Below are positions 5,657 to 26,259 of a stretch of DNA of 33,574 bases, piece after piece (the first letter of the stretch is position 1; the number at the start of each line of letters is the position of its first letter). Made by a program: the position numbers and the translations under genes. The notes below the pieces were generated by a model. That model was given only the letters and a program-made list of their open reading frames with translations. It did no database searches and was not told the DNA's origin. This DNA comes from a virus. The stretch spans positions 1 to 33,574 of IMG/VR virus record IMGVR_UViG_3300048838_000602, one strand, 5' to 3'.

Positions 5657-5663
5657 CGACCTC

Positions 5664-5691
5664 TTGCATCCGAAAAAGCGCTCTGTATGAT
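5664..5691 (+). promoter_or_regulatory. Late promoter (pR'-like)
   Basis: TTGCAT at 5664-5669 and TATGAT at 5686-5691 are 16 bp apart; both boxes are one base from consensus. The promoter begins 8 bp after the Q-like stop and is followed within about 30 bp by an intrinsic terminator. In lambda-type phages this pair is the target of Q. A Q-binding site would be expected in or near the spacer; none can be named by eye. Confidence 0.78.
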
Positions 5692-5720
5692 TCGGCATCA
5701 GAGCTTGGAGTACTGTCTGT

Positions 5721-5745
5721 AAAGCCCGCCGCGCGCGGGCTTTTT
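5721..5745 (+). terminator. Intrinsic terminator behind the late promoter (tR'-like)
   Basis: AAAGCCCGC and GCGGGCTTT form a 9 bp stem with a 5-nt loop (5721-5743), ending in a T-run TTTTT (5741-5745). The short leader between the promoter and this terminator would give an RNA of only about 45-50 nt without Q. The region 5746-5831 holds no gene I can support. Confidence 0.88.
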
Positions 5746-5831
5746 CGTTTCTGAAGGTCGGCCGCAAGTCCCCGTGGCCGTTCCTGCCTTGCCCCGGCCT
5801 CGTGCCGGGCCCTTATTCCCGAGGAGGCCTC

Positions 5832-6431: not shown

Positions 6432-7616
6432 ATGACCAAGGCAGCGCAGGCGAAAAGCTGGACGCTGCACGAGTGGGCGGACGGCAGCCATCGGTCGTGG
6501 CCGGAGCCAGAGGGGCCGACGTGGCTGCCGGCGCTCGGCCAGTGGGGGACGATCTCAGGCAGTACGCTCGATCTGTCGAGCGATTGGAACAGCTCGGACT
6601 ACACGACTGTCATCGCGTATTCGGGCGCGATCGTCAACACGGTCGGCGTGTATATCGGATCGACGTTCGTGTCGGGGACGTGGCATGTCATTTGCGGGCA
6701 GGGCCACAGCGACGGTTCGCGGTTCAGCGTCTACGCGTTCGGTCCGATGGAGAGCGATTCGCCCGCGTGGCACATGCTGCGCGACGCGCCGGGCTCTCCG
6801 CCGACGAATACGGCGCAGGACGGCAGCGGCAATCCGGTCGCTCGGCACACGTACAACACGCTCTGGTTCGATCCGGTCAACAACCGGATGGGATCGATCG
6901 GCGGGATAGCTCGCGCCACGGATGCCGGCACGTTCACGACTTCACATTACTTCGATTTCACCATCAGCGCGCCGATGAGCAATTCGCCGTGGGGTACGTT
7001 GTCGAGTTCCGGGTTGATCGATGGTGCGGATTTCACCGCCTATGATCCTGCGACGCACAAGGTCTGGTATCACCCATACGTCTCCGGCGCGGTCGGACTG
7101 TACGACGTGGCGAGCAATACTCACACGTCGGACACGTTCAAATCGCCTAGCTTCTCGAACCCCACCGGAGAGATGAGCGCGCTCGATACCGAGCTAGGCA
7201 TTTGGGGGATTTTCTACAACGGCGGCGTCAACTTTTTCCGGACCAACAACGGCGTCAGCAACGACTACTACGTGCCATCGACGAGCGGCACCGCGCCTAC
7301 CGGTGCGAAGAGCGTGCTATACGACCCGGTCGACAAGCGGTTCGTGGTGTGGAATGGCAATGGTCGCCAGTTGTTCTATTTGACGCCACCCGCGACGAAT
7401 CCGTACGCGGGCGGGAACGCGTGGGTGTGGTCGAGTGATACCGCGAGCGGTGACACTCCATCTGGCGCGGCGGGCACAGTGGACGCCGAGCCCGGCGAGA
7501 ACGGGACTGATACCGGAACCTACGGTCGATTTGCGCTGATCAGCGGTAGTGGCTGGCGTGCATATACGCTGCTGAACCGCGCGGGCGATCCTATCTATGC
7601 CAAACGGGTGGCGTAA
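6432..7616 (+). CDS. Propeller-like structural or accessory protein
   Basis: A 394-residue protein, 3 bp after the FnIII gene's stop. It is rich in Gly, Ser, Thr, Trp and Tyr and in short strands with regularly spaced motifs (AYDPATHKVWYHPYVSG, LYDVASNTHTS, LYDPVDKRFVVWNGNGRQLFYL), typical of a Kelch/beta-propeller fold. There is no signal peptide. The DNA is less GC-rich than neighbours, with codon choice unlike the rest of the phage and none of the CTCGAG words seen elsewhere, which suggests later acquisition. Its ATG-TAATGG junction couples it to the fibre gene (1 bp overlap). A receptor-binding or virion decoration role is likely, but this is inference. Confidence 0.7.
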   Translation: MTKAAQAKSWTLHEWADGSHRSWPEPEGPTWLPALGQWGTISGSTLDLSSDWNSSDYTTVIAYSGAIVNTVGVYIGSTFVSGTWHVICGQGHSDGSRFSVYAFGPMESDSPAWHMLRDAPGSPPTNTAQDGSGNPVARHTYNTLWFDPVNNRMGSIGGIARATDAGTFTTSHYFDFTISAPMSNSPWGTLSSSGLIDGADFTAYDPATHKVWYHPYVSGAVGLYDVASNTHTSDTFKSPSFSNPTGEMSALDTELGIWGIFYNGGVNFFRTNNGVSNDYYVPSTSGTAPTGAKSVLYDPVDKRFVVWNGNGRQLFYLTPPATNPYAGGNAWVWSSDTASGDTPSGAAGTVDAEPGENGTDTGTYGRFALISGSGWRAYTLLNRAGDPIYAKRVA

Positions 7617-9736
7617 TGGCGGTCACGGTCACCGGCACGCCAGTCGCGATCACGAGCACGTCGCAGTCGGTGACGGTGCCGAGCGGCTGCAAGGCGGCGG
7701 TCTTCACGTGGTCGTATTACAACGCTGCCAGCGGCCACGGACTGGCGTCGGCTACACTGAACGGCGCGGCGCCTGACGCCACAGCCGAGATCGCGACGCA
7801 GATTGGCGGATCGGACGCGCCTGCAACCGGCATTGCAGTGTTTTTAAATCCGGCGTCTGGATCGCAGACGTTCGCGCATTCGTTCGATGCCGCGACCACC
7901 GAAGGACCAGCGCGAGCGCTGACGTTTCTCACCGCTGACGGTGCCATAGCAGTACGCGGCTCGTTGGGCGTCGACTCGGATTTCAGCAGCAACGCTGCGA
8001 GCGTCGCGCTCACCGGGCTGACGGCTGGCGATCTGGTCGTCGCGATGGACCAGAAGTTCGCCGCAGACCCGGCGAATCAGTCAGGCTGGACGAGCCTGCT
8101 GACAGGCAACGTCAACAACGAGCACTTCCGTGTGCGCAGCATTGCGGCCTCGGGTTCGTCGGTTACCGCAACCGCGCAGGGGCCGAACTATTCGTCGATA
8201 GCCGCCGGGGCGTTCTACGACGCGGGTGTCGCATCGCCAACGATCACTGACGTCGACACCGACGAGATCGTGCTCGACGGTCAGACGAGTGTAGCCGTCA
8301 CCGGTACGGCGATGGGCACCACGAACGCGGATCGCGCGTTCACACTGCGACAAGCCAGCACGTCGGTCCCGCAGACCGAGACCGGCACCGGCACCGCGAC
8401 CGCTGCGACGCTGACGATTGTCACGGAACAGAGTGGCGCGGACATCAAGTTCGGCGCGGCGACGCTACGAGCGACGCGCACGAGCGACAGCGCCTTCGGC
8501 GAGTTGGCCATCACGGTCAACCCGCCGAGCGGCCAGCTCTACGTCGACGTCGGCACGCCGAACGCCACCGCTGCGAATCGCATCACGGCCGTCGCGGATA
8601 TCGCTAGCGGCGATCAGATTCAGTATCGCGGTGTGGGTGGTGGATCAGCGCCGACTGGGCTGACGATCAACACCGACGCGACGTGGCAGTTCAGCTCCGG
8701 CAACACGCCGGCCTCGTTCGATGTGCGGGTGTGGGACGCCTCGGACGCGACCTGGGGCGCGTGGGCGACGCAGAGCGTTGGCGCCATCAGCCTGACCGTC
8801 AATGACGCGACGCATGGTCACGCCGTTGATGCGCCGGCGCTGAGCCAGGCGAATACGCTCACGTCGAACGATGGCCTGCACGGGCACGCGGCCGACAGCC
8901 CGAGTCTCACCCAGGGCCACGTGCTGAGCTCGAACGAGGCGACGCACGGGCACGCCGTTGAGAGCCCGACGCTCACGCAGGCGACGGTGCTGTCCGCCGA
9001 CGAGGCCGCGCATGGCCATACAGCTGACTCGCCCGCGCTGGCCCAGGCGAATGTGCTCACGGCCCACGATGCCACGCACGCCCATCTGGCCGATGTGCTG
9101 GATCTGATTCAGGCGAACGTGCTCGAGGTCGACGACGCCCTGCACGCGCAGCTCGCGGACTCGCCGACGCTGCTCGCCGGTTTCGCCCTGTCGGTGAGCG
9201 AGGCGACGCACGGGCACCTGGCCGAGAGCGTCTCGCTGATCCAGGCGCGCACGCTGAGCGTGGACGAGGCTGCCCACGCGACCTCTGCGGACAGCCCGAC
9301 CCTGTCGACCGAGCTGAACCTCGCGGTGGCGGACTCGAGCCACGGCCACGCTGCTGATGCGGTGACGCTGATCCAGGCGCACGTCCTCGACATGGACGAT
9401 GCGACGCACGGCCACACGGTAGAGCAGGTCGCGCTGAGCTTTGGCTTTACGGTGACGGTGGCCGATGCGCTGCATGCGCAGCTCGCCGACAGCCCGACGC
9501 TCACGGTGGGCTACGTCCTGGCAGTGGCCTCGGCCCTGCACCTGCATGAGGCCGGGGTCGTGGATCTCACGCAGGCCGGGACGCTGATCGTCTCGGACGC
9601 CCTGCATGCGCACCTGGCCGACACGGTGGCGCTGCGCCGGCCAGGCGCGGTCGACGCGGAGACGGTGTTCGTCGTGAGAAGCCAGCAGCGCACCTACATC
9701 GTCGCGAGCGCCACACGCATCCACACGGTTCATTGA
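7616..9736 (+). CDS. Large fibre-like protein with 13 HxH repeats
   Basis: A 706-residue protein in three parts. Residues 1 to about 205 form a beta-rich head (VPSGCKAAVFTWSYYNAAS), probably a jelly-roll. Residues of about 206-390 contain two beta-sandwich-like segments (SPTITDVDTDEIVLDGQ and GQLYVDVGTPNAT). Residues 393 to about 678 are 13 tandem 22-residue repeats, each with Leu-x-Val-x-Asp-Ala, His-Gly-His and Ala-Asp-Ser-Pro positions. HxH motifs in T4 gp37 and related needles bind iron along a trimer axis, so this looks like a long metal-stapled fibre. The tail ends VVRSQQRTYIVASATRIHTVH. The head is low in GC, the repeats high. The fibre role is inferred from architecture and late-operon placement. 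Confidence 0.78.
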   Translation: MAVTVTGTPVAITSTSQSVTVPSGCKAAVFTWSYYNAASGHGLASATLNGAAPDATAEIATQIGGSDAPATGIAVFLNPASGSQTFAHSFDAATTEGPARALTFLTADGAIAVRGSLGVDSDFSSNAASVALTGLTAGDLVVAMDQKFAADPANQSGWTSLLTGNVNNEHFRVRSIAASGSSVTATAQGPNYSSIAAGAFYDAGVASPTITDVDTDEIVLDGQTSVAVTGTAMGTTNADRAFTLRQASTSVPQTETGTGTATAATLTIVTEQSGADIKFGAATLRATRTSDSAFGELAITVNPPSGQLYVDVGTPNATAANRITAVADIASGDQIQYRGVGGGSAPTGLTINTDATWQFSSGNTPASFDVRVWDASDATWGAWATQSVGAISLTVNDATHGHAVDAPALSQANTLTSNDGLHGHAADSPSLTQGHVLSSNEATHGHAVESPTLTQATVLSADEAAHGHTADSPALAQANVLTAHDATHAHLADVLDLIQANVLEVDDALHAQLADSPTLLAGFALSVSEATHGHLAESVSLIQARTLSVDEAAHATSADSPTLSTELNLAVADSSHGHAADAVTLIQAHVLDMDDATHGHTVEQVALSFGFTVTVADALHAQLADSPTLTVGYVLAVASALHLHEAGVVDLTQAGTLIVSDALHAHLADTVALRRPGAVDAETVFVVRSQQRTYIVASATRIHTVH
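8792..9649 (+). repeat. Thirteen tandem 66-bp (22-residue) coding repeats
   Basis: The repeats keep an exact 66 bp period with no indels. At each period a Leu is followed by Asp/Glu-Ala, then His-x-His (mostly HGH, some HAH, HAQ, HAT, HLH), then Ala-Asp/Glu-Ser-Pro and Leu-x-Gln-Ala. DNA identity between copies is moderate, so the array is old or under purifying selection, unlike a recent slippage array. Copies 6, 8 and 11 have lost the second His. Confidence 0.92.
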
Positions 9737-10343: not shown

Positions 10344-10865
10344 ATGGCCGACTGCTATCCGCTCCTGACCGTTTGCCAGCGCCTGAACGCGCGGCTGCGC
10401 TACGGATTCGACTGGACGCGCGACTTTGCGCGTCGGCGCGAGCCTGGCAAACCGCATCCGCTCGGCACTCGCATCCGCATCACCGAGCTCGGCAGGCGGG
10501 ACACCGGCCTCGAGTACGAGAGCTCGGGCGGCACCTCGAACGGCCTCGATAACGCGAAGATCGCCTGGCCGACGGCACCAGGCGGGACTGTCGTCGACGG
10601 CACGATCACCTGGACGGCCCATGCGCTGAGCGCTGCGAGTCTCACCGAGGAGATCACCTCGAGCACGTGGGCGGCGCCCGTGGGCAGCGGAATCGTGGTC
10701 GATGGCGAGGTGCTCGACAATGATCCCGGCCTGCAGCGCACGCTGGCGTTCATGGACACCACCGGCGCCGAGTCCGGGCAGACCTACGATGTCGTGAACA
10801 CCGTCGTGACCTTGCCCGACACCGCGCGGTACGAGGCGGTAGTCCGGATCACGGTCGATCCCTGA
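10344..10865 (+). CDS. Hypothetical structural protein
   Basis: A 173-residue protein; the ATG at 10344 is chosen over an in-frame start 60 bp earlier inside the previous gene. The N-terminal 45 residues are basic (CQRLNARLRYGFDWTRDFARRREPG); the rest is beta-rich (GTRIRITELGRRDTGLEYESSGG, GTVVDGTITWTAHAL, EITSSTWAAP) and ends YEAVVRITVDP. Its TGATG junction overlaps the next gene's ATG. It could be a tail or neck accessory protein; no family is recognised. Confidence 0.68.
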   Translation: MADCYPLLTVCQRLNARLRYGFDWTRDFARRREPGKPHPLGTRIRITELGRRDTGLEYESSGGTSNGLDNAKIAWPTAPGGTVVDGTITWTAHALSAASLTEEITSSTWAAPVGSGIVVDGEVLDNDPGLQRTLAFMDTTGAESGQTYDVVNTVVTLPDTARYEAVVRITVDP

Positions 10866-11641
10866 TGTTCCGCGTCCGCCTGGATGCGAGCTCGCTGATA
10901 CGCGAGTTCACCGATATCGAGAAGCGCCAGCTCCCGTACGCCACGATGCGCGCGCTGAACGATGCCGCATACCAGACGCGCCAGGCGTGGCGGGATGCCA
11001 TGCCGAAGGTGTTCGATCGCCCGACCAGGATGACGCTGAACGCCATCCTGTACAGGAAGGCCACGAAGGACCGGGTGTATGCCGAGGTCTTCGTGCGGGA
11101 CTACGCTCTCAAGGGCACGCCCCCAGCAACCTACTTGCTGAGCAACGTCATAGGTGGTCAGCGCGGCCAGAAGCCCTATGAGCGCTTGCTGCGCGATCGG
11201 CCGGGTGTGCTAGGACCCGGCGAGTACACCGTGCCGGGCAAAGGCATAGAACTTGATCAGTACGGTAACGTACGCGCTGGCATTATCAACGCCATGCTTT
11301 CGGACCTGGCCGCGCGGCGAGATCCGAAACAGAACGCGACGCCGAGGAGTCGCCACAGGCGGCAGCGCCGGGGAGACATCGCGAAGCGATCCATTTACTT
11401 CTATAGCGCTGGCCCAGCGGCTGATCGTGGAGATGGCCGGCCACAGCATTTGCCGCGCGGCATCTACCGGCGCACGCGCACGGGCTTCGGCAGTTCACTG
11501 AATTCGGCGCTGCGCATCGTCAACGCCGCACGTTATAAGCCGAGCTATCCAGTGTTCGATCTGGCCGAGCAGATCTTCCGCGCTCGCTTCGCTGCGCTGT
11601 TCGAGGCACACATGACGCTAGCGACGGCGGGAAGGCTATGA
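10865..11641 (+). CDS. gpZ-like minor tail / tail-completion protein
   Basis: A 258-residue protein overlapping the previous stop by 1 bp. The opening (LIREFTDIEKRQLPYATMRALNDAAYQTRQAWRDAMPKVFDRPTRMTLNAI) fits the pattern of lambda gpZ-type minor tail proteins, in which a helical N-terminus precedes a beta-rich, very basic centre (PRSRHRRQRRGD) and a C-terminal helix (YPVFDLAEQIFRARFAALFEAHM). Lambda Z lies between FII and U. Here the matching place is held by another gene, and this one lies just before the terminase genes. The family call rests on pattern rather than a clear signature. Confidence 0.6.
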   Translation: MFRVRLDASSLIREFTDIEKRQLPYATMRALNDAAYQTRQAWRDAMPKVFDRPTRMTLNAILYRKATKDRVYAEVFVRDYALKGTPPATYLLSNVIGGQRGQKPYERLLRDRPGVLGPGEYTVPGKGIELDQYGNVRAGIINAMLSDLAARRDPKQNATPRSRHRRQRRGDIAKRSIYFYSAGPAADRGDGRPQHLPRGIYRRTRTGFGSSLNSALRIVNAARYKPSYPVFDLAEQIFRARFAALFEAHMTLATAGRL

Positions 11642-14360: not shown

Positions 14361-15892
14361 ACTGGTTCGATCGCTATGTGGTGGCGCCGGTGGCGCCCCG
14401 CATGGCGCTGCATCGGGCCGCCGCGCGCCGCGCGCTTAAGGCCTATTACGAGGCGGACGAGGAAAGCCGCCTGCGCAAGAAGCCGAAGGATCGGCGCTCG
14501 GGGGATGCACAGAACGAGCGCGCAAACATCGGCATGCGCGCCAGCGCGCGCCATCTCGACCAGAACTTCGACATCGCTTCGGGCGTGCTCGACATTCTTG
14601 AGACGAACATCATCGGTCGCGGTGTACAGCCCGAGCCGCAGGTGCTCCTCACGAGCGGCGAGCCGGCCACGGAGTTCAACAGCCACCTGATGCGCCTGCA
14701 CGACCTCTGGGCGCACGAACACGACGTGACGGGCCAGTTCCACCTCTACGAGGGGCAGCGCTTGATGGTGCGCTCCTGGGCGCGTGACGGAGATGTCTTC
14801 GCGCAGAAGCTCATCGGAAACGTACCTGGGCTCACCTACGGCACGGTGTTGCCATACGCGCTCGAGTACCTTGAGGCGGACTTCGTCCCGGATGACTTGA
14901 ACGATGCGAGCCGCCGCATCACCCAGGGGATCGAGCGCAACGCGTGGGGTCGTACGATCGCCTTCCACGTGCTCAAGGAGCACCCGGGCTCGACCCTGAG
15001 CTTCAAGCTCGAAGCGAAGCGCATCCCGGCCCAGTCCATGGTGCACCTGAAGCTGGTGAAGCGATTCCACCAAGCGCGCGGTGTGACGCTCTTCGCGTCG
15101 GTGCTCAACCGTTACGGCGACATCAAGGAGATCGATGAGGCGGAAAGAGTCGCCGCCAAGGTCGCCGCCTCGATGGCCGCCTACATCAAGAAGGCCACGC
15201 CAGACATGTACGAGGCGGCGGTCGATGAGATGGGCCAGCCACGGGCCCGCAACATGGAGTTCATGGCGGGCATCGTCTTCGATGACCTGCAGCCCGGCGA
15301 GGAGATCGGCACGATCGACACGCGCCGGCCGAACAATGCGCTGATCCCGTTTCGCGACTCACAACTGCGCGCGGCGGCGGCCGGAACCAAGGTCTCGTTC
15401 TCGTCCTCATCGAAGAACTACAACGGCACCTACTCGGCGCAGCGTCAGGAGCTCGTCGAGCAGTGGGGCATGTATCAGGGCCTCGGATCGAGCTTCGTAT
15501 ACCGGGTGGCCCAGCCAGTGTGGGACGGCTTTATCGACGCGGTGGTCGCCTCCGGTGCAATCGAGATCCCGCGCAACGTCGATCGGGAGACTCTCTACGA
15601 CTGCGTGCATACCGGCCCTTCGATGGTCTGGATCGATCCGGTGAAGGAGACCGAGGCGCAGGTGATGCAACTCAAGTGGGCGCTCAAGGCTCGCAGCCGA
15701 ATCATCCGCGAGCGTGGCGACAACCCGGACCAGGTCAACCGCGAGATCGAGCGCGATCGCAAGGAGCGCGAGCGCCTTGGCATCGAGTTCCTCGACCTCC
15801 AGCAAGCCGACCCGCAGCCAGAGCGTGAGGACGATCCCGACGAGGGAAATCCCGGCCAGGGCGAAAATGAAAACGGAGCCAGCAACGCATGA
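14357..15892 (+). CDS. Portal protein (lambda gpB family)
   Basis: A 511-residue protein with a TTG start (TTGA overlaps the gpW stop). It shows the lambda-type portal layout: MNWFDRYVVAPVAPRMALHRAAAR, then NERANIGMRASARHLDQNFDIASGVLDILETNIIG, a central domain with VRSWARDGDVFAQKL, and HVLKEHPGS and HLKLVKRFHQARGVTLFA segments. The C-terminus is acidic (REDDPDEGNPGQGENENGAS). It forms the dodecameric ring through which DNA is packaged and ejected. The weak TTG start and the overlap suggest that its level is set by coupling to gpW. Confidence 0.93.
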   Translation: MNWFDRYVVAPVAPRMALHRAAARRALKAYYEADEESRLRKKPKDRRSGDAQNERANIGMRASARHLDQNFDIASGVLDILETNIIGRGVQPEPQVLLTSGEPATEFNSHLMRLHDLWAHEHDVTGQFHLYEGQRLMVRSWARDGDVFAQKLIGNVPGLTYGTVLPYALEYLEADFVPDDLNDASRRITQGIERNAWGRTIAFHVLKEHPGSTLSFKLEAKRIPAQSMVHLKLVKRFHQARGVTLFASVLNRYGDIKEIDEAERVAAKVAASMAAYIKKATPDMYEAAVDEMGQPRARNMEFMAGIVFDDLQPGEEIGTIDTRRPNNALIPFRDSQLRAAAAGTKVSFSSSSKNYNGTYSAQRQELVEQWGMYQGLGSSFVYRVAQPVWDGFIDAVVASGAIEIPRNVDRETLYDCVHTGPSMVWIDPVKETEAQVMQLKWALKARSRIIRERGDNPDQVNREIERDRKERERLGIEFLDLQQADPQPEREDDPDEGNPGQGENENGASNA

Positions 15893-18018
15893 GCATCAAT
15901 GCCAACGCCGCCATGCGCGGCATCAAGATCGTGGCCCTCGCCAACAAGAAGGCGGAGATCCTGATCCACGAGCCGATCGGCGAGAACTGGTACGGCGATG
16001 GGCTCACCTCGAAGCGCTTCATCGACGAGCTCAAGGCGCTCGGTAAGGTCGACGAGATCCACGTCCGCATCAACAGTCCGGGCGGTGCGGTGTTCGATGG
16101 CATCGCCATCTACAACGCCCTGAAGGCCCACGAGGCGAAGAAGGTCGTGACCGTCGAGGGGCTCGCCGCCTCCGCGGCGTCCTTCATCGCCATGTGCGGG
16201 GACAGCATCCACATGGGGGCTGGCTCAATGATGATGGTCCACAACCCGTGGACCTTCGCCATGGGCGACGCGGACGACATGCGCGAGACCGCCGACATGC
16301 TCGACAAGGTCGGCGATTCCCTCATCGATATCTATCACCTGCGCACGAAGATCGCGCGCGACGAGATCGAGAAGCTGCTCGATGCGGAGACCTGGCTGAC
16401 CTCGGCGGAGGCTGTCGAGCGCGGATTTGCCGACACCCGGGATGAGGATGCCGAAGAGGAGGGCGAGGAAGCCTCCGCGGCCGCGCGCGCCGAGCACCTC
16501 GCCAAGTTCAAGAAGTTTTCCGAGGGCTGCCTGAAGGCGGCCACGGATGTTCCGCTGCGGGTTGCCGCAGAAATTTTCCATTCGGCCAACGCCGATGCAA
16601 CTGAGGAGACCGAGATGGCTCAGACCGTAGGAGCGTCGGCCAACCACGCCGACAAGAAGACGACCACCGACGTCGTGGACCAGCCCGAAACGAAGGCCAA
16701 GGTCGATGCGGCGGTCGCCGAGGCCCTGGCCCGCGAGGCCGCGCGCGCGGGAGAGATCCGCACGCTCTTCGCGAGCTTCCCGCAGTTCAACACGCTGCGC
16801 GATGAGTGCGTGACAGACCAGAAGGTGACGATCGATGCAGCGCGCAAGCGCCTGCTCGACGAGCTCGGCAAGGCCAGCACGCCGACCGCCGGAGATGCAA
16901 ACGTTCAGCCCGGCACCGATGCCCGCGACAAGTTCCTCGCCGGCGCCGAGGCGGCGCTGCTCGCGCGCGCCGGGATCGAGAAGCGCGAGGCGGGCAACGA
17001 GTACAACGGCATGAGCTTCGCGGACCTTGCCGCCCACGCGCTGCGGGCCCGCGGCGTGTCGGTGCGCGGCTTCACCAAGGACGCGACCGCGCGCAAGGTG
17101 CTGGCTTCGCACACCACGAGCGACTTCCCCTCGCTCCTGGCCAACACCGCCGGCAAGGTGCTGCGCAAGGCCTACGCGTTGGCGCCGGTCACCTGGAACC
17201 GCTGGTGCAAGACCGGCTCGGTGTCGGACTTCAAGCAGAACAGCCGCATCACGGTCGGTTCGTTCAGCTCGCTGGCGACCAAGATCGAGGGCGGTGAGTA
17301 CCAGCAGGGCACGATCAAGGAAGAGAAGGAAACCATCCAGGCGCTCACCAAGGGCCGCTTCCTGCAGCTCAGCCGCGAGATGATCGTGAACGATGACCTG
17401 GGCGGCTTCACCGATCGAGCCCGCAAGATGGGTCGCGCCGCGGCGCGCACCGTCGAGGCTGACGTGTACACGCTGCTCACGAGCGCCGCGGGGGCGGGTC
17501 CGACCATGTCGGATGGTGGCGCGTTCTTCAACGCGACGGCGATCACCACGGCTGGCGGTCACGCGAACCTCACCAGCTCGGGCACTGCGATCACAGTGGC
17601 GAACATCGCCATCGGCGAGGCGGCGATGATGGCGCAGAAGGACAAGGGACTGAACGACTTCGTCGTCATCCAGCCCCGCGTGCTGTTGTGCGCGCCGACG
17701 AAGAAGCAGATCGCCTGGGAAGTCGTGAACTCCCTCACGGACGTGGCGCAGAGCAATTCTGCCAAGCGAAACTACGTGCAGGCGCAGTTGAACCTCGAGG
17801 TGGTCTCGAGCCCGTACCTGTCGGGCAACCCCTGGTATCTGTTCGCGGACCCGGCGGACACCGAGGCCTTCGAGGTCGCGTTCCTGGACGGCGTGCAGGA
17901 GCCCTTCATCGACGAGGAGATCGAGTTCATGACCGATGCCCTCAACATGAAGGTGCGCCTCGACTATGGCATCGCCGCGATCGACTGGCGCGCGGGCTAC
18001 CGCAACGCCGGCGCCTGA
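15889..18018 (+). CDS. Fusion of ClpP-type prohead protease, scaffold region and major capsid protein
   Basis: A 709-residue protein overlapping the portal stop by ATGA. Residues of about 10-185 are a ClpP-like serine protease: INSPGGAVFDG, a Ser in GLAASAAS (S95), a His in MMVHNPW (H118) and an Asp in GFADT (D182) give a complete triad. Residues of about 190-400 are acidic and helical, as in a scaffold. Residues of about 405-709 match the Mu gpT-like capsid fold (GRFLQLSREMIVNDDLGGF, RAAARTVEADVYTLL). The protease should free the capsid domain and remove scaffold. An internal ATG at 16615 with GAGGAG upstream could add scaffold-capsid chains without protease. No stop or frameshift breaks the frame. 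Confidence 0.9.
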   Translation: MSINANAAMRGIKIVALANKKAEILIHEPIGENWYGDGLTSKRFIDELKALGKVDEIHVRINSPGGAVFDGIAIYNALKAHEAKKVVTVEGLAASAASFIAMCGDSIHMGAGSMMMVHNPWTFAMGDADDMRETADMLDKVGDSLIDIYHLRTKIARDEIEKLLDAETWLTSAEAVERGFADTRDEDAEEEGEEASAAARAEHLAKFKKFSEGCLKAATDVPLRVAAEIFHSANADATEETEMAQTVGASANHADKKTTTDVVDQPETKAKVDAAVAEALAREAARAGEIRTLFASFPQFNTLRDECVTDQKVTIDAARKRLLDELGKASTPTAGDANVQPGTDARDKFLAGAEAALLARAGIEKREAGNEYNGMSFADLAAHALRARGVSVRGFTKDATARKVLASHTTSDFPSLLANTAGKVLRKAYALAPVTWNRWCKTGSVSDFKQNSRITVGSFSSLATKIEGGEYQQGTIKEEKETIQALTKGRFLQLSREMIVNDDLGGFTDRARKMGRAAARTVEADVYTLLTSAAGAGPTMSDGGAFFNATAITTAGGHANLTSSGTAITVANIAIGEAAMMAQKDKGLNDFVVIQPRVLLCAPTKKQIAWEVVNSLTDVAQSNSAKRNYVQAQLNLEVVSSPYLSGNPWYLFADPADTEAFEVAFLDGVQEPFIDEEIEFMTDALNMKVRLDYGIAAIDWRAGYRNAGA
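16603..16617 (+). promoter_or_regulatory. Internal ribosome-binding site and ATG within the protease-capsid fusion
   Basis: GAGGAG (16603-16608) lies 6 bp before an in-frame ATG (16615), codon 243, with the product MAQTVGASANHADKK onward. This would give a 467-residue scaffold-capsid protein in addition to the full chain. Lambda makes Nu3 by the same means from inside C. Use of the start is inferred from the signal alone. Confidence 0.6.
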
Positions 18019-18088: not shown

Positions 18089-18460
18089 ATGACCGACAAG
18101 TTTGTCGCCCGTGGCGACGTGATGAACTACACGGCTGGCGGGGCGATCACGTCCGGCCAGGTCGTGGTAACCGGCCACACGCTGGGTGTGGCACTCAAGA
18201 GCGGCGGTTCTGGCGATGTAATCCCGGTCGCCATCGAGGGTGTGTTCGAACTGCCCAAGGTGCCTGCGGCAGTGTTCGCTATCGGTGAAAAGCTGGTGTT
18301 CGACGTCTCGGCGGCCTCCGGTGCCGGCGAGTTCGACGATTCGTCGGCCTCGCCCGCGACCGGTGACATTACCGGCGGTGCGGTTGCCATGCGCGCAGGG
18401 CTCAACGCCGAGACGACCTGCCTCGTGAAGCTCACCCCGGGCAACGCGACGCGGACCTGA
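18089..18460 (+). CDS. DUF2190-like head decoration protein
   Basis: A 123-residue protein with AAGGAG upstream. The pattern (FVARGDVMNYTAGGAITSGQVVV, GHTLGVALKSGGSGDVIPVAIEGVFELPK, EKLVFDV, GAVAMRAGLN) is that of DUF2190 proteins, compact beta-tulip folds found after the capsid gene of many siphoviruses. They trimerise on the capsid surface and stabilise expanded heads, as lambda gpD does. The place directly after the capsid terminator supports this. Confidence 0.85.
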   Translation: MTDKFVARGDVMNYTAGGAITSGQVVVTGHTLGVALKSGGSGDVIPVAIEGVFELPKVPAAVFAIGEKLVFDVSAASGAGEFDDSSASPATGDITGGAVAMRAGLNAETTCLVKLTPGNATRT

Positions 18461-18463
18461 TCG

Positions 18464-18781
18464 ATGTCGATCGAGCAGATCGACTCGAGGGTCAATGCGG
18501 CCTCGCTCCGAGTCTTCGGGGAGGCCGCAACCTTCGAGCAGGGTGGCAACGCTCGCGTCATATTCACCGATCAGCGTAGTGCAGTCATGCTCGGCCTTGC
18601 GCCTGCGGATGCCCCCGCGCCGGTGATCAGTCTCACGATGACCGAACTTCAGCGCCTCGGTGCGCAGGAGGGTTCGACGGTTGTGGTGCGCGGGATTTTG
18701 TACACCCTGATGGAGGGCGGCTCGGACGCCGTGGCGGATGCGGGCGGCATGGCCCACCTGCGCATCCGCCAGTACGCATGA
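18464..18781 (+). CDS. FII-like head-tail attachment protein
   Basis: A 105-residue protein starting MSIEQIDSRVNAASLRVFGEAATF. The layout, an N-terminal helix and then beta strands (ARVIFTDQRSAVMLGL, VISLTMTELQRLGAQEGSTVVVRGILYTLM), ending LRIRQYA, fits the lambda gpFII attachment family. It closes the head and makes the platform for the tail. The stop overlaps the methyltransferase-fusion gene by ATGA, so the insertion of that gene kept the operon coupled. Confidence 0.8.
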   Translation: MSIEQIDSRVNAASLRVFGEAATFEQGGNARVIFTDQRSAVMLGLAPADAPAPVISLTMTELQRLGAQEGSTVVVRGILYTLMEGGSDAVADAGGMAHLRIRQYA

Positions 18782-20055
18782 CCCGCAAGACGGAGATCGA
18801 CAAGTACAACGAGGCCTACAGCCACGACGAGTACCGGATGGGCGAGGCCCGAAAGTGGGCGGCGCTGCGCGATCTGCAGAGCCTGCGCGGCGGCTCGCTG
18901 CTCGACGTCGGCTGCGGGCGCGGCGAGGTGCTCGAGCTCGCCCGCGACCTGGGCTTCGAGCCGGTGCAGGGCACGGAGGTCGTGCCGGCGCTGCTGGGCG
19001 AGGGGGTGCGCTACGCCGAGGCGCACGAGCTGCCCTTTGCCGACGGCGCGTTCGATCACGTGACCTGCTTCGACGTGCTCGAGCACTTGCTGCCCGAGGA
19101 CACCGAGGCCGCGCTGCGCGAGCTCGCGCGGGTGGCGGCGAAAACGGTCACGATCACGGTGGCCGACTACCCGCACGTGTTTCGGGGCGTCGACCTGCAC
19201 GTGAACCGCCGCAGCTACCCCGAGTGGGCGCAGCTGCTCATGCAGGTCTTCGGGCACTCGCGGGCGCGCTGCCTCGGCATGGCCGGCGCCTCGCAGGCCT
19301 GGCGCATCACGCTCGAGGCGCAAAAGCGCAGCCCGATGAAGCGCCTGCGCCGGCCCGAGCCTGCGCGGCGCGCGGATTTCGAGGCGACGCTGCGCGGCCG
19401 CCATCGCGGCGCGACCTTCATCGTGCTGGGCGGTGGCTCGTCCCTGGCCGCGCAGATGGCCGGCGCGCCGCCGGCGCTGCGCATCAGCGCCAACGAGCAC
19501 GGGTGCCTGTGGGGGCCGTGTGATTACGTTTCGGCGATGGATGACATCGCGGACAAGGTGCGCGCCTTCGGCATTCCGGTGATCGGACGCGACCCGAACA
19601 CCTGCGACTACCTCGCGCAGCCGTTTCCGAACGTGCGCTGGACCGGCACGCAGGCCGTGTACCACGCCTACGTGATGGGCGCGCACCTGGTGCTGCTCGC
19701 CGGCATGGACCTCTACCAGGATCTGCCGGAAGGCACGCCGGGCGGTCGGCGCACGCCGCTCGAGACGCACCTCGAGGCCTGGCAGGTGATCAAGGACACG
19801 CTGCCGGTCCCGGTGAGGGCCCTCGGTGGGCCCCTCGTCGACGTCTTCGGCCTGTATGACCCGGCCGAGGTCGTGCCGGCGCCGGGCGTGCTGCCGCGCA
19901 TCGAGCCGGTGAACACGGTCGAGACCTGCCTCGTGCGCACGCTCGCCGGCGGCGCGCTGCTCGGCCGGCGCTACGTCGCGGGCCAGCGCCTGTGGATCCG
20001 ACCTGACGAGCTGCGCGCGGCCGCGGCCGCGGGCCTGGTGGAGAGTCTATCGTGA
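18778..20055 (+). CDS. SAM-dependent methyltransferase fused to a DUF115/GT42-like domain
   Basis: A 425-residue protein. Residues of about 25-185 are a class I methyltransferase: motif I LLDVGCGRGE (41-50), and CFDVLEHLLP (97-106) typical of the methyltransferase-11 group. Residues of about 210-365 look like a second Rossmann domain: FIVLGGGSSLA (214-224), RISANEHG and CDYVSAMDD (235-256), and TGTQAVYHAYVMGAHLVLLAGMDLY (289-313), the pattern of DUF115 and GT42 sialyltransferase-like proteins. Residues of about 396-425 (RRYVAGQRLWIRPDELRAAAAAGLVE) resemble a short domain seen on phage virion proteins. It lies between FII-like and tail-terminator genes. A role in modifying a virion protein, glycan or nucleotide is inferred; the substrate is unknown. 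Confidence 0.72.
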   Translation: MTRKTEIDKYNEAYSHDEYRMGEARKWAALRDLQSLRGGSLLDVGCGRGEVLELARDLGFEPVQGTEVVPALLGEGVRYAEAHELPFADGAFDHVTCFDVLEHLLPEDTEAALRELARVAAKTVTITVADYPHVFRGVDLHVNRRSYPEWAQLLMQVFGHSRARCLGMAGASQAWRITLEAQKRSPMKRLRRPEPARRADFEATLRGRHRGATFIVLGGGSSLAAQMAGAPPALRISANEHGCLWGPCDYVSAMDDIADKVRAFGIPVIGRDPNTCDYLAQPFPNVRWTGTQAVYHAYVMGAHLVLLAGMDLYQDLPEGTPGGRRTPLETHLEAWQVIKDTLPVPVRALGGPLVDVFGLYDPAEVVPAPGVLPRIEPVNTVETCLVRTLAGGALLGRRYVAGQRLWIRPDELRAAAAAGLVESLS

Positions 20056-20486
20056 ACCCGCTCGCGCTCGAGCTGATCATCCGCGCGAGGCTGCGCGAGC
20101 AGATCCCGACCGTGACGATCGGCTCGGTGGCGTCCTTCGCCGGCGCGCTCGATCCCACGAGGATCGTGCCGCTCATCTGGGTCCAGCCGGCGGAGGGCGA
20201 GGCCGTCGACAACCGCGGACAGGGCCGCGCGGCGCTCGACCTGCAGCGCTGGACGGTCTTCGTCGCCACGGCCGCGGTGCCCGACAAGCTGTACGCCGAC
20301 GCCTCGTTCCAGGAAGCCGGCGAGCTGATGGGGCAGGTCCTGACGGCGCTTATCGGCTGGCGACCTGAACAGCCCGGCTACAGCGCCTTTCGGTATGCGG
20401 GCCGGCCACCGCCGGCCATCGAGCTCGGCTGGGCGGCCTTCCCGATCACGTTCGAGTGTCACGCCCCGCTCATCAACATCACCTGA
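20052..20486 (+). CDS. Tail terminator-like protein (gpU position)
   Basis: A 144-residue protein with a GTG start overlapping the previous stop (GTGA). It begins NPLALELIIRARLREQIPTV and has beta-alpha alternation (IVPLIWVQPAEGEAV, QRWTVFVATAAV, helix QEAGELMGQVLTALIGWRP, IELGWAAFPITFECHAPL), typical of the gpU/Mu gp37-type tail-terminator fold. It stops tail-tube growth and joins the tail to the head. The place before the tube protein matches lambda order. Confidence 0.75.
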   Translation: MNPLALELIIRARLREQIPTVTIGSVASFAGALDPTRIVPLIWVQPAEGEAVDNRGQGRAALDLQRWTVFVATAAVPDKLYADASFQEAGELMGQVLTALIGWRPEQPGYSAFRYAGRPPPAIELGWAAFPITFECHAPLINIT

Positions 20487-20500
20487 CCAGGAGAGTTTCA

Positions 20501-21271
20501 ATGGCTGAGAAGTACTACTACGGCCAGGGCCGCGTTCACGTCGCGTCCTTCGGCAGCGCGGCCTACCGTTGGGTGGGTGACGTGTCGGCGCTCTCGATCG
20601 GCTTCGAAGTGCAGAACATCGACCACTTCGAGTCCTACAGCGGGCAGAAGAACCGCGCGCGGCGCCTCGCGCTGCAGACCGATGGCACGGTCAACATCAC
20701 CATGCATCAGATGGATCGGGACAACCTGGTGCTCGCGCTGCGCGGCACGGGCACGGACATCCCGGCCATCACCACGGCGACCGCCACGCACGCGATCGCC
20801 GCCGCGGCCGCCGGCGACATCATGTTCCTGCCGCACATCCGCATCAATCGCGGCTCAGGCGTCACCTTCACGGTGGTGGACGCGAACACCACGCCGTTGT
20901 CGCTCACCGAGAACACGCACTGGACGCTCGATGCCGACACCGGCAAGCTCACGTTCGTCCTCGTGCCGACCGCCGCGGTGTTCCCGCTGACCGTCACCTA
21001 CGAGTACGGCGCCCAGGACCAGCTCGCGCTGCTCAACACGGCCGCTCCGGTGGTCTCGATCGTCTACGAGGGTATCAACCTCGCCGAGAGCAACGCGCGC
21101 TCGCGCGTCGAGCTTTACCGCCTGTCCATGAACCCGCTCGAGGAGCTGCAGCTCATCAACGCCGATGCGTTCGGTGCGTTGACGATCTCGGCGGCCATGG
21201 AGGCCGACGGCACCAAACCGGCTGGCGGCACGCTCGGGCAGATGGGCCGCATCCTCGAGTTCGCCGCGTGA
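20501..21271 (+). CDS. Major tail tube protein
   Basis: A 256-residue protein with AGGAGAG upstream of the ATG at 20501. It starts MAEKYYYGQGRVHVASFG and has the beta-barrel pattern of siphovirus tube proteins, with a cluster (VSALSIGFEVQNIDHFESYSG, then KNRARRLALQTDGTVNITMHQM) typical of this class. Residues of about 120-180 (GVTFTVVDANTTPL...) look like an inserted surface domain. It stacks as hexamer rings around the tape measure. The next gene starts at an overlapping GTGA. Confidence 0.85.
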   Translation: MAEKYYYGQGRVHVASFGSAAYRWVGDVSALSIGFEVQNIDHFESYSGQKNRARRLALQTDGTVNITMHQMDRDNLVLALRGTGTDIPAITTATATHAIAAAAAGDIMFLPHIRINRGSGVTFTVVDANTTPLSLTENTHWTLDADTGKLTFVLVPTAAVFPLTVTYEYGAQDQLALLNTAAPVVSIVYEGINLAESNARSRVELYRLSMNPLEELQLINADAFGALTISAAMEADGTKPAGGTLGQMGRILEFAA

Positions 21272-21944: not shown

Positions 21945-24465
21945 GATCAAGGTCCGGCTGACGCCCGAAGGCCTCGCGGAGGTCATCGGCGCGATCCGCA
22001 AGGTGCAGACCGAGGCGAAGGAGGCCAGCACTTCTGCGACGAGCAGCACGAAGGCGCTCACGACCGCGCTCGGCGGGCTGCGTCGCGTGATGGGCGCCAT
22101 GGGGCTCGGGCTGTCGGTCGCCGGCATTGTGGCCTTCGGCCGCGCGGTGGCGAAGTCCGCGACGGAAACTGTCGATGCGGCAAAGCGCATTGGCGTCTCG
22201 GCCGAGGAATTCTCGCGCCTGCAGATAGCTGCGCGCGCGGCGGCGGGTAGTGACGGCCTGGGCGCGCTCGAGGCCGCGGCGCGCACCCTGCAGCGCAATC
22301 TCTCGAACGCGCTCTCGAACCCCACCGGGGAGGCTGCGCGCGCGTTCCAGCAGATCCGCATCGAGGCGCGCGAGTTCCAGAAGCTCTCGCTCGAGGACCA
22401 GTTCGCGGTCGTGGCCGATGCGGTCAAGGACCTGTCGAACCAGGAGGATCGGCTGCGGGCCGTGATGGACCTTATGGGCAAGAGCGCAGCGAGCCTCGTG
22501 CCGCTCTTCGCCGAGGGCGGCACGGAGATGAAGCGCGTCGCCGACGAGGCCCAGCGCGCAGGGCGCGTGCTCAGCAACGAGACGGCCGCCGGGATCGATC
22601 GCGCCGACAAGGCGATCAAGCGTCTGAAGTCCACGATCAGCCGGACGGGACGCGATGCCCTCGGCAGTGTCGTGGCCACGGTGTTCGAGGCCTACGACGA
22701 GCTGACGAAACCGGAGGCGGAGAAGATCGCCCGCGATCTGGCGCTCTCGCAGGAGTCGCTGCAGCGAGCCCTGAAGGCCGGCGATGCGGGCACGATCGCG
22801 CGCCTCGAGGAGCGCATCCGGGCGCTGAAGGATGCGCAGACGGCGCTTGAGATCTCGTCTCGAGGTGGCGGGCCTTCGACTCGTCGCCTCTCGACGCGGC
22901 GAGCCGCTACGGCGGACGATGGCACCGATCGCTCCCAGCTCGCCAAGATCGAGACGCCCGAAGAGCGCCGAGCCCGCCTCGAGCTCGCGCGTGCGCGCAT
23001 CCAGGACGCGCAGAAGATCGCCGACGCCGAGCGTGCGATCCGCGCCCAGGCCGACGAGCAGGCCTACAAGGACGGGCTGATCAGCCTCGAGGCCTATTAC
23101 GTGCGCCGGCGCGAGCTGGCGCAACAGGCCGGAGCAGCCGAGGTGCAGGCGCTGCAGGCGCAGATCGGGCTGATCCAGCAGCAGGACGTCGAGACCGACT
23201 CCGAGCGCACGCGCCAGGCCGGGCAGGTCGATCAGCTGCGCGCGCAGATCGCCGTGCGCCGCCTCGAGCTCGAGCGCGAGCTGGCGCAGCTCATCGGTCA
23301 GCAGGCCGAGGAAGGCAGGAAGCTCGCCGAAGACCAGCTCGAGGTCGCGAACCGACTGGACGAGATCGAGGGCAATCGCCACGCGGCCTTCCAGCGCAAC
23401 CTCGCCGAGGAGATCCGCCAGCTCGAGCGCCTCGGGGCGCAGATCGGCCTCACCAGCGCCGAAATCGAGGCGCAGGCCGCGCGGCTGAGGACGTCACTTA
23501 CCGCGGGGTTCAATTTCGAGCAGGCCTCGAGCGCCGCGACGAGCGCGCTCGAGGCGTTCAACCGTGACGCAGAGCAGATCCGCCGCGACCAGGAGGCGGG
23601 CCTGCTCACGCAGCTCGAGGGCGAGAACCGCCTCATCGAGCTCGCACGCGAGCGTCTCGAGGTGCTGCGGGCGGTGTCGGCTGAGTCGATGCGCGCCGCG
23701 CTGGCGACGGGCGACCCGGCGCTCATCGCCCAGGCCGAGCAGCAGGCGGCCTCGGTCGCGCAGATCGCCGCCTCCTTCCACGCCGCGACGAACTCCGCCG
23801 CGCGCTACCGGCAGGGCCTCGAGAGCGGCCTGCAGGACGGCCTCACGGGCCTGGCTGCTAACCTCGCCGCGATCGAGTCGCTCGAGGACGCGTTCCGCCA
23901 GCTCGCGCTCACCGTCGTGCAGTCGCTCGCGCAGATCGCCGCCGAGCTGCTCGCCAAGCAGGCCACGCTCGCGATCCTGCGCGCGTTCGGCGGCCTGGGC
24001 GGCGCGGGCGCCGGCGCCACGGGTGGCCCCGTCGAGGGCTACGCCACCGGCGGGCGGGTGCGCGGCAAGCGGCTGAACATCCCGGGGCCGGACAAGATCC
24101 CGGCGATGCTGCAGGAGGGCGAGTACGTCGTGCGCCGGCGCGTCGCGACGAACCCGCTGATCGCCGGCTTCCTGCGCGACCTGAACTCGGGCGCGATCTC
24201 CCCGCAGCAGCTCGCGCTGGGACTGAGCCCGCCGCGGGGCTACGCGACCGGCGGCTCGGTCAGCCTGGTCGCGGCGCAGTCCGAGGCGGCCGCGGCGGAT
24301 CTCACGCGCGGCGGCGCCACACAGACGAACGCGCGCCTCGAGGGCGTGCTCGGCCTCGAGGAGGGACTGGTGTTCAAGCAGCTGAACTCTGACGCGTTCG
24401 ATGACCTGCAGCTCTACCGCCTGAGCCGCAATCCGGCGAAGTTCCGCAGCGCGCTGGGCCTGTAA
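21931..24465 (+). CDS. Tail tape measure protein
   Basis: An 844-residue protein, starting MATREIKVRLTPEGLAEVIG. It is mostly long coiled-coil helix (for example EEIRQLERLGAQIGLTSAEIEAQAARL), with a glycine- and alanine-rich hydrophobic segment near residues 43-77 (ALGGLRRVMGAMGLGLSVAGIVAFG) that may enter the host membrane. The C-terminal part repeats GYATGG (ATGGRVRGKRLNIPGPDKIPAMLQEGEYVVRRR), as in many tape measures. It sets the tail length; at about 0.15 nm per residue this predicts a tail near 125 nm. It is the largest gene after the distal tail genes and dense in CTCGAG words. Confidence 0.93.
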   Translation: MATREIKVRLTPEGLAEVIGAIRKVQTEAKEASTSATSSTKALTTALGGLRRVMGAMGLGLSVAGIVAFGRAVAKSATETVDAAKRIGVSAEEFSRLQIAARAAAGSDGLGALEAAARTLQRNLSNALSNPTGEAARAFQQIRIEAREFQKLSLEDQFAVVADAVKDLSNQEDRLRAVMDLMGKSAASLVPLFAEGGTEMKRVADEAQRAGRVLSNETAAGIDRADKAIKRLKSTISRTGRDALGSVVATVFEAYDELTKPEAEKIARDLALSQESLQRALKAGDAGTIARLEERIRALKDAQTALEISSRGGGPSTRRLSTRRAATADDGTDRSQLAKIETPEERRARLELARARIQDAQKIADAERAIRAQADEQAYKDGLISLEAYYVRRRELAQQAGAAEVQALQAQIGLIQQQDVETDSERTRQAGQVDQLRAQIAVRRLELERELAQLIGQQAEEGRKLAEDQLEVANRLDEIEGNRHAAFQRNLAEEIRQLERLGAQIGLTSAEIEAQAARLRTSLTAGFNFEQASSAATSALEAFNRDAEQIRRDQEAGLLTQLEGENRLIELARERLEVLRAVSAESMRAALATGDPALIAQAEQQAASVAQIAASFHAATNSAARYRQGLESGLQDGLTGLAANLAAIESLEDAFRQLALTVVQSLAQIAAELLAKQATLAILRAFGGLGGAGAGATGGPVEGYATGGRVRGKRLNIPGPDKIPAMLQEGEYVVRRRVATNPLIAGFLRDLNSGAISPQQLALGLSPPRGYATGGSVSLVAAQSEAAAADLTRGGATQTNARLEGVLGLEEGLVFKQLNSDAFDDLQLYRLSRNPAKFRSALGL

Positions 24466-25331
24466 TGCCGCACCAGATCGGATTCGTCGACGACACGAGC
24501 CAGCTCGCGCATTACGAGATGCTTGATGCGATCCATGACCTGGCCGACGACAACGGCTGGACGATCGAGCGCTACGACACCGGCGGCACGGATCACGAGG
24601 TGATCATGTCGGCCCCGGGTTACACCGGCCCGGATGGCGCGGTGCCGATGTATTGCGGCGTGAAGTCCTATCACTCGGTCCCGAGCGACTATTACAACCT
24701 GCTCTTCGGCGTCTTTACGGGCTATGTGTCTGCCAACTCCTTCGAGACTCAGCCCGGAGTGAGGCTCTCGGGCGTGCCGGCGCACAACCAGCGCATCGAC
24801 TACTGGATGACGATCAACGATCGCCGTCTGGCGCTTGCGATGAAGGTGGGCACCCCCGTCTATGAGAGCGCGTACATGGGCTACTTCCTGCCCTATGCGA
24901 CGCCGCGCCAGTATCCGTACCCCGTCGTCTGCGCCGGTATGCTCACGGGAGCTGCGGCGACGCGCTTCTCGGATGGCTCGCACAGCATGGGCTTTCGCGG
25001 CAACAGCGCAGCGCTGGGTGCCCGCAATACCGCCGGGGCCTGGCTGAATCTGTACTGCCACCCATGGGGCAACAACAACATCATGAACAGCGGGACGTCC
25101 AACTACTCGACCCGCCCGAGTGGGACAACCTACCCGCTGCTGCCCGTCGTGCTGCACGACAACTCGGCGAACGTGTTCGGGGAGCTCGAGGGCATCTACG
25201 CCATCACGGGCTTCGACAACGCCGTGGAGAACACGCTCGACATCGGCGGCGATGACTACGTGGTCATCCAGGACGTGGCGCGCACCGGGTTCATCGACTA
25301 CTACGCGATGAAGCTGGACCCGAACCCGTGA
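24465..25331 (+). CDS. Distal-tail or fibre-associated virion protein, family A
   Basis: A 288-residue protein overlapping the tape-measure stop by 1 bp. It belongs to a phage virion family with the pattern of a helical start (LAHYEMLDAIHDLADDNGWTIERYDTGG), then VPMYCGVKSYHSVPSDYYNLLFGVFTGYV, then YWMTINDRRLALAMKVGTPVYESAYMGYFLPYATPRQYPYPVVCAG. This family follows the tape measure in several siphoviruses. The exact role is unknown, but tail tip or side-fibre attachment is the usual proposal. The C-terminus ends TGFIDYYAMKLDPNP. Confidence 0.75.
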   Translation: MPHQIGFVDDTSQLAHYEMLDAIHDLADDNGWTIERYDTGGTDHEVIMSAPGYTGPDGAVPMYCGVKSYHSVPSDYYNLLFGVFTGYVSANSFETQPGVRLSGVPAHNQRIDYWMTINDRRLALAMKVGTPVYESAYMGYFLPYATPRQYPYPVVCAGMLTGAAATRFSDGSHSMGFRGNSAALGARNTAGAWLNLYCHPWGNNNIMNSGTSNYSTRPSGTTYPLLPVVLHDNSANVFGELEGIYAITGFDNAVENTLDIGGDDYVVIQDVARTGFIDYYAMKLDPNP

Positions 25332-25341
25332 GGACTCGCTA

Positions 25342-26259
25342 ATGGCTCACGTCACCGGCTCGGCCGGCAGCATCTCGGCGCTGATGTCGTCGATTCGCTC
25401 GGCTTGCACGGGCAACGGCTGGACGCTCTCTGGCAATGTCCTGCACAAGGGCGATGTCCACATCGAGACGACCGTGGTCGATGAGACGATTTGCTTCCTC
25501 GGCGGCACGGGGGTCGATGGTGGCAACAACCTGACCGGCCCCGGTCCTTCGGTCGTTCGGGTCGCCTTCAATCTCGCCAGCATCACCGTCTCGTACCCGG
25601 TGACCTACGAGTTGCACATCAACACCTCGCCGGACGAGGTGTACGTGGTCGTGAACTACAACACCAACGACTTCCAGTGGGCGGCGTGGGGGCAGTCCGA
25701 CATCGCGGATATCGGTGGGACCGGCGTCTGGTATGCGGCGGCGTGCAACAACCTGCCGGGGCCAACCGGGCAGTGGATCGGGGGCCCGAACGGCGCCAAC
25801 ACCGGCAACCAGACGCTCATGCATGGGCTGTTCTACAACACGACGTCCTTTACCGGCGCGCCGCTCAACAGCATTAATTCGTTCATCCATAACGGCATCG
25901 ACGCTGTGGGGTGGACGCCGCCGAATGGCTCAACGCCGACGGCCTGGGCGTGGTCGGCGGTTGCGCCGCTGCTGAATCTCTTGCCGAACACGTGGAACGA
26001 CCAGACGGTCCTGCTGCCGATGCCGGTGTTCAAACCGCGCAGCTCGGGCAACAAGGTCAGCTTGCTGGCCGATCTTCGCCACGTGCGCCTGTGCCGGGTC
26101 GACTACCACAACCCCGGGGACATCATCACCCTGGGTACAGATCAGTGGAAGCTGTACCCCTGGTACCGCAAGAACACCGCAGGCCGAAACGGAAGCAGCG
26201 GGTCGCCGATTACGCACTCCGGCACGATGGGCTTCGCGGTGCGTTACACGGGGTCCTGA
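25342..26259 (+). CDS. Distal-tail or fibre-associated virion protein, family B
   Basis: A 305-residue protein, 10 bp after the previous gene. The start (SISALMSSIRSACTGNGWTLSGNVLHKGDVHIET) is built like that of the preceding protein, a helix then a GW-T strand, so the two may be distant paralogues. The rest is beta-rich (VTYELHINTSPDEVYVVVNYNTNDFQWAAWG) and ends FAVRYTGS. It is likely part of the tail tip, by position and likeness. The function is not known. Confidence 0.72.
   Translation: MAHVTGSAGSISALMSSIRSACTGNGWTLSGNVLHKGDVHIETTVVDETICFLGGTGVDGGNNLTGPGPSVVRVAFNLASITVSYPVTYELHINTSPDEVYVVVNYNTNDFQWAAWGQSDIADIGGTGVWYAAACNNLPGPTGQWIGGPNGANTGNQTLMHGLFYNTTSFTGAPLNSINSFIHNGIDAVGWTPPNGSTPTAWAWSAVAPLLNLLPNTWNDQTVLLPMPVFKPRSSGNKVSLLADLRHVRLCRVDYHNPGDIITLGTDQWKLYPWYRKNTAGRNGSSGSPITHSGTMGFAVRYTGS

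Follow-up and report, generated by a model that had tools for sequence, protein, structure and literature searches.

What does a methyltransferase joined to a glycosyltransferase-like domain do among the genes that build a phage particle? This question is raised by a viral record of IMG/VR (IMGVR_UViG_3300048838_000602), whose 33,574 nucleotides are referred to below as the window. The gene at 18778-20055, on the plus strand, encodes a protein of 425 aa that consists of a methyltransferase (MT), a GT42/MptE-like domain and a C-terminal mini-domain, as determined from its open reading frame, Pfam, and structure and profile searches. A first-pass annotation had described an MT with a GCGRG motif joined to a second Rossmann-like domain, tightly coupled to the genes on both sides and lying between an FII-like gene and a tail terminator gene. 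We found all of this to hold. The frame is open, the motifs GCGRG, GGGSSL, DYVSAMDD and AGMDLY are all present in its translation, and Pfam and the structural models agree with the two-domain architecture. The gene overlaps its upstream neighbor by four bases (ATGA, 18778-18781) and its downstream neighbor by four bases (GTGA, 20052-20055). The GC-content at the three codon positions presents the pattern of a coding gene, similar to the neighboring genes, both in the MT part (0.74/0.44/0.97) and in the remainder of the frame (0.76/0.52/0.91). An identical 425-aa protein was found on two further IMG/VR contigs and fusions in the reverse order exist elsewhere, which rules out a chance fusion or a sequencing artefact.

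The two flanking genes, also on the plus strand, are a lambda FII-like head-tail attachment protein upstream (18464-18781; Phage_attach PF05354, E = 9.4e-8; phrog_82, E = 4.8e-6) and a tail terminator downstream (20052-20486; Phage_tail_terminator PF23840, E = 7.8e-21). They are preceded on the same strand by a head maturation protease fused to the major capsid protein (15889-18018; phrog_133, E = 1.5e-178) and a head decoration protein (18089-18460; phrog_122, E = 2.2e-19), and followed by a major tail protein with an Ig-like domain (20456-21271; phrog_807, E = 4.8e-58). Terminase, portal and tape measure genes are also present in the module. The tail terminator gene additionally matches phrog_209, which PHROGs labels as “portal protein”; against the Pfam match, this label looks wrong. 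In the coliphage mEp213, the slot between the gene at the FII position and gpU is filled by gpZ, and it is this slot that the fused gene occupies in the window. A minor tail protein encoded before the terminase (10865-11641; phrog_1924, E = 4.1e-61) is weakly gpZ-like, with E = 0.001 to the gpZ of mEp213 in a single comparison. In the close relative L030, the MT and GT42-like pair precedes the FII-like gene and so stands one gene further upstream than in the window, as fits an accessory cassette that shifts its place in the module.

Other parts of the window presented features of their own. The products of the adjacent genes 24465-25331 and 25342-26259 both match the same region of the profile phrog_687, a structural protein (E = 1.7e-60 and 1.4e-28, respectively), and these genes may be old tandem paralogues; BLASTP between the two products detected no significant similarity. 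Upstream of the packaging genes, a fibronectin type III protein is encoded at 5802-6428, followed by two large proteins (6432-7616 and 7616-9736) that match nothing in Pfam or PHROGs. The three proteins are possibly tail fibre-like.

The first domain (residues ~1-180; 18778-19317, plus strand) was identified as a class I SAM-dependent MT from Pfam, an AF2 model, Foldseek and VIA comparisons, and invariant columns. Residues 42-121 match Methyltransf_11 (E = 8.8e-14) with a score of 52.4 bits, above the Pfam cut-off of 21.2, and the glycine-rich loop of motif I is present (LLDVGCGRG), the combination by which class I enzymes of the Methyltransf_11/23/25 families are recognised. The other motifs are the acidic E67, a motif IV-like CFDVLEH and a conserved LH at 140-141. 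The model (pLDDT 94.9) is that of an ordinary small class I methyltransferase: it aligns to class I MTs with Z of about 17-20 in VIA, and Foldseek returned more than 1,200 PDB matches at E<=0.001, which are small-molecule-type MTs and do not discriminate the substrate. Matches in Pfam and NCBIfam were likewise limited to generic small-molecule-type MT families, with none to a DNA-methylase family. Among the top matches of the sequence search are RebM and AtmM, which act as sugar O-methyltransferases in indolocarbazole pathways; AtmM is deposited as a D-glucose O-methyltransferase.

The MT belongs to a family with a clear signature, invariant over 38 members (E6, Y10, Y19, D43, G47, P86, D99-V100, E102-H103, H141 and W150), and pairs of members show dN/dS of about 0.24-0.40, indicating purifying selection. 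Its relatives in viral contigs reach 74% identity, whereas the best cellular relatives are 25-55% identical, mostly over only part of the domain; a recent origin from a host is therefore not visible. A pattern scan of 84,980 species genomes yielded no close relative. The family is also nearly absent from cultured phages, where a single weak match was found in a Mesorhizobium phage.

The second domain (residues 199-366; 19372-19875, plus strand) was assigned to a GT42/MptE-like (DUF115) Rossmann-like fold based on an AF2 model, structural alignments, a profile match to CstII and residue conservation. In Pfam, the window's domain alone has no match, including to PF01973. Among 44 aligned members of its family, 33 match PF01973 (MptE-like) at E<0.1, with a best value of 1.9e-6, and the highest score among the relatives shown is 26.1 bits, below the gathering cut-off of 34.6 bits; one of the 44 matches PF06002 (CST-I; E = 0.012). 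In addition, 22 members match phrog_4603, which is named alpha-2,3-sialyltransferase. The fold was modelled from an alignment of the window and IMG/VR rows only (pLDDT 90.3, pTM 0.78). In a Foldseek search with this model, GT42 sialyltransferases rank first (best E = 2.1e-4). VIA-align gave Z of 11.6 for CstI (161 residues, 3.4 A), 11.4 for CstII and 9.9 for a Pasteurella GT42 (9c08). For comparison, the MptE HPPK of M. jannaschii (8sd5_A) aligned with Z 10.6 (134 residues, 2.9 A), the cell-division protein SteA with Z 10.6 and thiamin pyrophosphokinases with about 8.5. A profile of 40 sequences of the domain, searched against the PDB, retrieved CstII with E = 2.6e-6, and GT42 was the only significant match; 5mu5, which we take to be Maf, was at 0.033. 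The family thus combines the GT42 fold with a significant sequence relation to GT42.

The domain shares with the GT42 sialyltransferases a Rossmann-like fold, a GxGPSL-type start, the N31 position, an SG and the pattern LG..EI.L.G.D.Y. It differs from them in being only 10-19% identical, in carrying D at the position of N51, in having no demonstrated equivalent of H188, and in its fusion to an MT in a different setting. The conserved residues are N239, D255, T289-G290, G309, D311 and Y313, of which N239 and Y313 align to N31 and Y156 of CstII, and D255 replaces N51 in 40/40 aligned sequences. The active-site residues of CstII are N31, N51, Y156, Y162 and H188; the loop around Y162/H188 differs. 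Many relatives carry a Y-x-H segment (RYWH, HFHG) that is absent from the window and from L014-L018 and L020, which makes transferase activity in the window uncertain. The GT42-like part of the window has also diverged faster (dN/dS of about 0.7 against L030, a value near saturation), whereas the comparison of L029 and L030 gives 0.32, indicating purifying selection. The transferase half of the window's protein may be altered or inactive.

The first-pass annotation had read this domain as GT42/DUF115-like. Structure prediction and comparison with the DUF115, GT42 and methyltransferase families point to GT42 as the best assignment for the second domain and to a class I MT for the first, and, as regards fold and superfamily, the GT42/DUF115 reading is correct. 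The central domain of Maf (pfam01973) has been described as CstII-like (PMC11339370), which allows DUF115, MptE and GT42 to be regarded as a single superfamily and makes the original guess an apt one. Relative to the Maf flagellin glycosyltransferases and archaeal MptE (PF01973 MptE-like/Maf_flag10), the phage domain presents weak family matches and a structure similar to 8sd5, but it is short and without the N- and C-terminal domains of Maf. The “virion-type” C-terminal tail mentioned in the same annotation is also a fair description. Residues 382-425 (19921-20052, plus strand) form a mini-domain with Foldseek matches in BFVD of about 45 residues to small phage proteins of the DUF7210 type, and the VIA matches cover model residues 181-226. 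A similar extension exists in the relatives L014-L020, L029 and L030.

We then analyzed the distribution of the two domains in viruses by searching IMG/VR separately with each of them and dereplicating the loci at 85% identity. This resulted in 55 viral loci, including the GenBank phage ctUtU524. Both families are present in 38/55 loci, with four loci containing only the MT and 13 only the GT42-like family; several of the latter are on contigs cut off close by, and some MTs escaped the gene caller (as in L029 and L011). The MT and the GT42-like domain are within two genes of each other in 36 loci, compared with 16.9 on average, and never more than 27, in 2,000 shuffles of gene order. These shuffles were made within loci and keep both genes in the locus, which makes them a conservative control; the locus counts are approximate, being based on simple gene calls in which some starts are surely wrong. 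Among the 38 loci, the GT42-like gene is upstream in 23 and the MT in 12, the window is the only MT-GT42 fusion, and two loci present GT42-MT fusions (L047, L061). The pairing of MT and GT42-like domains is not a one-off.

Further enzymes accompany the pair. GT2-like genes were found in nine loci and GT8-like genes in six. Fusions of a GT2-like domain to the MT are present in L036, L038, L062 and L093, and a fusion of a GT8-like to the GT42-like domain in L022 (a weak GT8 match in Pfam, E = 0.0025). Pfam also identified an FkbM methyltransferase (L058; E = 7.1e-18), a second MT (L006), and both a GT2 (E = 8.7e-7) and a Sulfotransfer_2 domain (E = 1.4e-16) in L099. In that last locus, the Sulfotransfer_2 enzyme (4770-5318) is encoded in a phage head-tail module, beside the GT2, an MT and two GT42-like genes. 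The cassettes are flanked by families of head closure Hc1, tail terminator, head-tail adaptor, tail completion and major head proteins, and the virion genes around them vary: some are lambda-like with a protease-capsid fusion, others carry one of several major head protein families, and others encode tail tubular proteins. Since the surrounding virion genes differ, it is the cassette rather than the host module that recurs. The co-divergence of the MT with its neighbor was weak (Spearman 0.24; maximum of 0.28 in 2000 permutations) and we do not take it as evidence.

Counterparts exist in cultured phages. In D3, the capsid gene has orf7 (of the phrog_4603 type) after it, and the methyltransferase orf13 lies ahead of the HK97 gp10 gene and the tail terminator gene; in PAJU2, gp10-gp11-gp12 lie between head closure and terminator. 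The GT42-like genes of D3 and PAJU2 match the domain-2 profile with E = 6e-39 and 7.6e-37, respectively. Their MTs match the MT profile weakly (1.8e-4 and 1.5e-3) and also match Methyltransf_23. As in the window, a GT42-like gene, which in both of these phages is of the phrog_4603 type, and an MT are thus contained in the stretch from capsid to tail terminator (orf7-orf12-orf13 and gp10-gp12), but the enzymes are in separate genes and the MT is only distantly related. The genes beside the cassette MTs, D3 orf12 (L185, 7748-8575) and PAJU2 gp11 (L186, 6540-7367), have no Pfam match; by eye, they look like GT9 heptosyltransferases. In P1 (L187), the pmgO-pmgP stretch contains two GT42-like ORFs (4944-5606 and 5504-6130), and the position of pmgQ is taken by a GT8-like ORF (6801-7502; E = 1.3e-27); we assigned these gene names by gene order. 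The P1 pmg genes are annotated with a “putative morphogenetic function” and pmgO, pmgP and pmgQ are nonessential (PMC10695390). The P1 region resembles the cassettes in its GT42-like and GT8-like ORFs and differs from the window in that no MT of the window's family was found in the stretch examined and in that it is not between head closure and terminator. Queries with GT2-like and RYWH-type GT42-like sequences found no match among cultured phages.

Together, we favor the interpretation, to which we give a probability of roughly 0.55, that the fused gene encodes a late, bifunctional carbohydrate-modifying enzyme that adds a methylated glycan, most likely to a component protein of the phage particle itself. 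The enzyme would be made late, together with the head and tail proteins. Its GT42-like half would transfer a sugar from a nucleotide-activated donor, possibly a nonulosonic acid, or extend a glycan, and its MT half would methylate this sugar or the finished glycan using SAM. The acceptor would be a particle protein such as the capsid, decoration or major tail protein, the last of which (20456-21271) is a possible target, and the virion would leave the cell with a coat of methylated glycan. A transferase and an MT, with GT2, GT8, sulfotransferase and FkbM enzymes as optional partners, are what a pathway for the assembly and capping of a glycan would consist of. That the gene lies among those for virion assembly and is tightly coupled to its neighbors suggests a particle protein as acceptor. 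Cassette content and position are joined by a precedent: cluster O mycobacteriophages are reported to modify capsid and tail tube with an O-methyltransferase and three glycosyltransferases (PMC11600133). In gene content and position, the cassettes fit what is seen in mycobacteriophages with glycosylated virions (Che8, Corndog, Myrna). No nucleotide-sugar synthesis gene was seen and no second glycosyltransferase was found among the window proteins scanned, so the host would have to supply the donor and any first sugar. The first-pass annotation had proposed a system that glycosylates and methylates a virion part: the enzyme pair and the carbohydrate partners of related loci support the chemistry, and the virion target is what we infer from position. 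Against this interpretation stand the generic MT fold, which does not fix the substrate, the replacement of N51 by D255 throughout the family, and the missing Y-x-H segment and faster divergence of the window's GT42-like part.

Some of these features could be read differently. Phage glycosyltransferases often change the O-antigen, and the GT8 genes of pelagimyophages have been interpreted likewise (PMC7029224); the enzyme might similarly alter LPS, capsule or another glycan of the host surface, late in infection or in lysogens, leading to superinfection exclusion or easier release. We consider this unlikely because the gene is translationally coupled to the FII-like and tail terminator genes and the location is the same in several virion types, from which a function at assembly is expected; the sialyltransferase-like gene of D3 also sits in the structural module. 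Phage glycosyltransferases and methyltransferases are also well known from DNA hypermodification, and packaged DNA is a conceivable substrate for late gene products, so that the protein might modify phage DNA before or during packaging. The earlier suggestion of a nucleotide-modifying enzyme was of this kind and found no support: no DNA-methylase, TET/JBP or other base-modification family was detected in the window proteins scanned, the MT itself included, and the cassette partners in other loci are carbohydrate enzymes rather than base-modifying ones. We regard this reading as very improbable.

Two further readings concern the second domain itself and are both quite unlikely in our judgment. 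The similarity to the M. jannaschii HPPK and to thiamin pyrophosphokinases, the naming of PF01973 after MptE, and D255, which appears MptE-like rather than CstII-like, would fit an MptE-like diphosphokinase or another nucleotide-dependent small-molecule enzyme whose product is methylated by the MT. However, the profile search of solved structures retrieved GT42 and not MptE, and the partner genes are glycosyltransferases, a sulfotransferase and sugar-type MTs. Alternatively, the window's copy may be partly decayed or repurposed, its GT42-like half being an inactive binding or assembly part and the MT alone being active, as its missing Y-x-H segment, faster divergence, GGGSSL in place of GGGPSL and DUF7210-like addition could indicate. 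Yet the frame is open with a coding GC3, N239, D255, G290, D311 and Y313 are kept, and the six phage relatives that also lack Y-x-H mostly keep the other motifs.

Extending the methylated-glycan interpretation beyond the window is more tentative. It is possible, at somewhat less than even odds, that unrecognised and widespread virion-decoration cassettes coat many unrelated tailed phages, each built from a GT42/MptE-like transferase and a dedicated viral MT and diversified by GT2, GT8, sulfotransferase or FkbM enzymes. P1 and D3 would then hold counterparts of these cassettes, and the window a single-chain version. Cassettes of this class were not described in the available papers on MptE-like phage proteins, 6-hydroxymethylpterin, or sialyltransferases in head-tail modules. 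Evidence for virion glycosylation has so far come mainly from a small number of mycobacteriophages, with shielding from antibodies reported (PMC12363180). If our proposal is true, glycosylation of the particle would be common across tailed phages and would affect adsorption, stability and antibody recognition. It would also provide a function for the “putative morphogenetic” genes of P1 and the sialyltransferase-like genes of D3.
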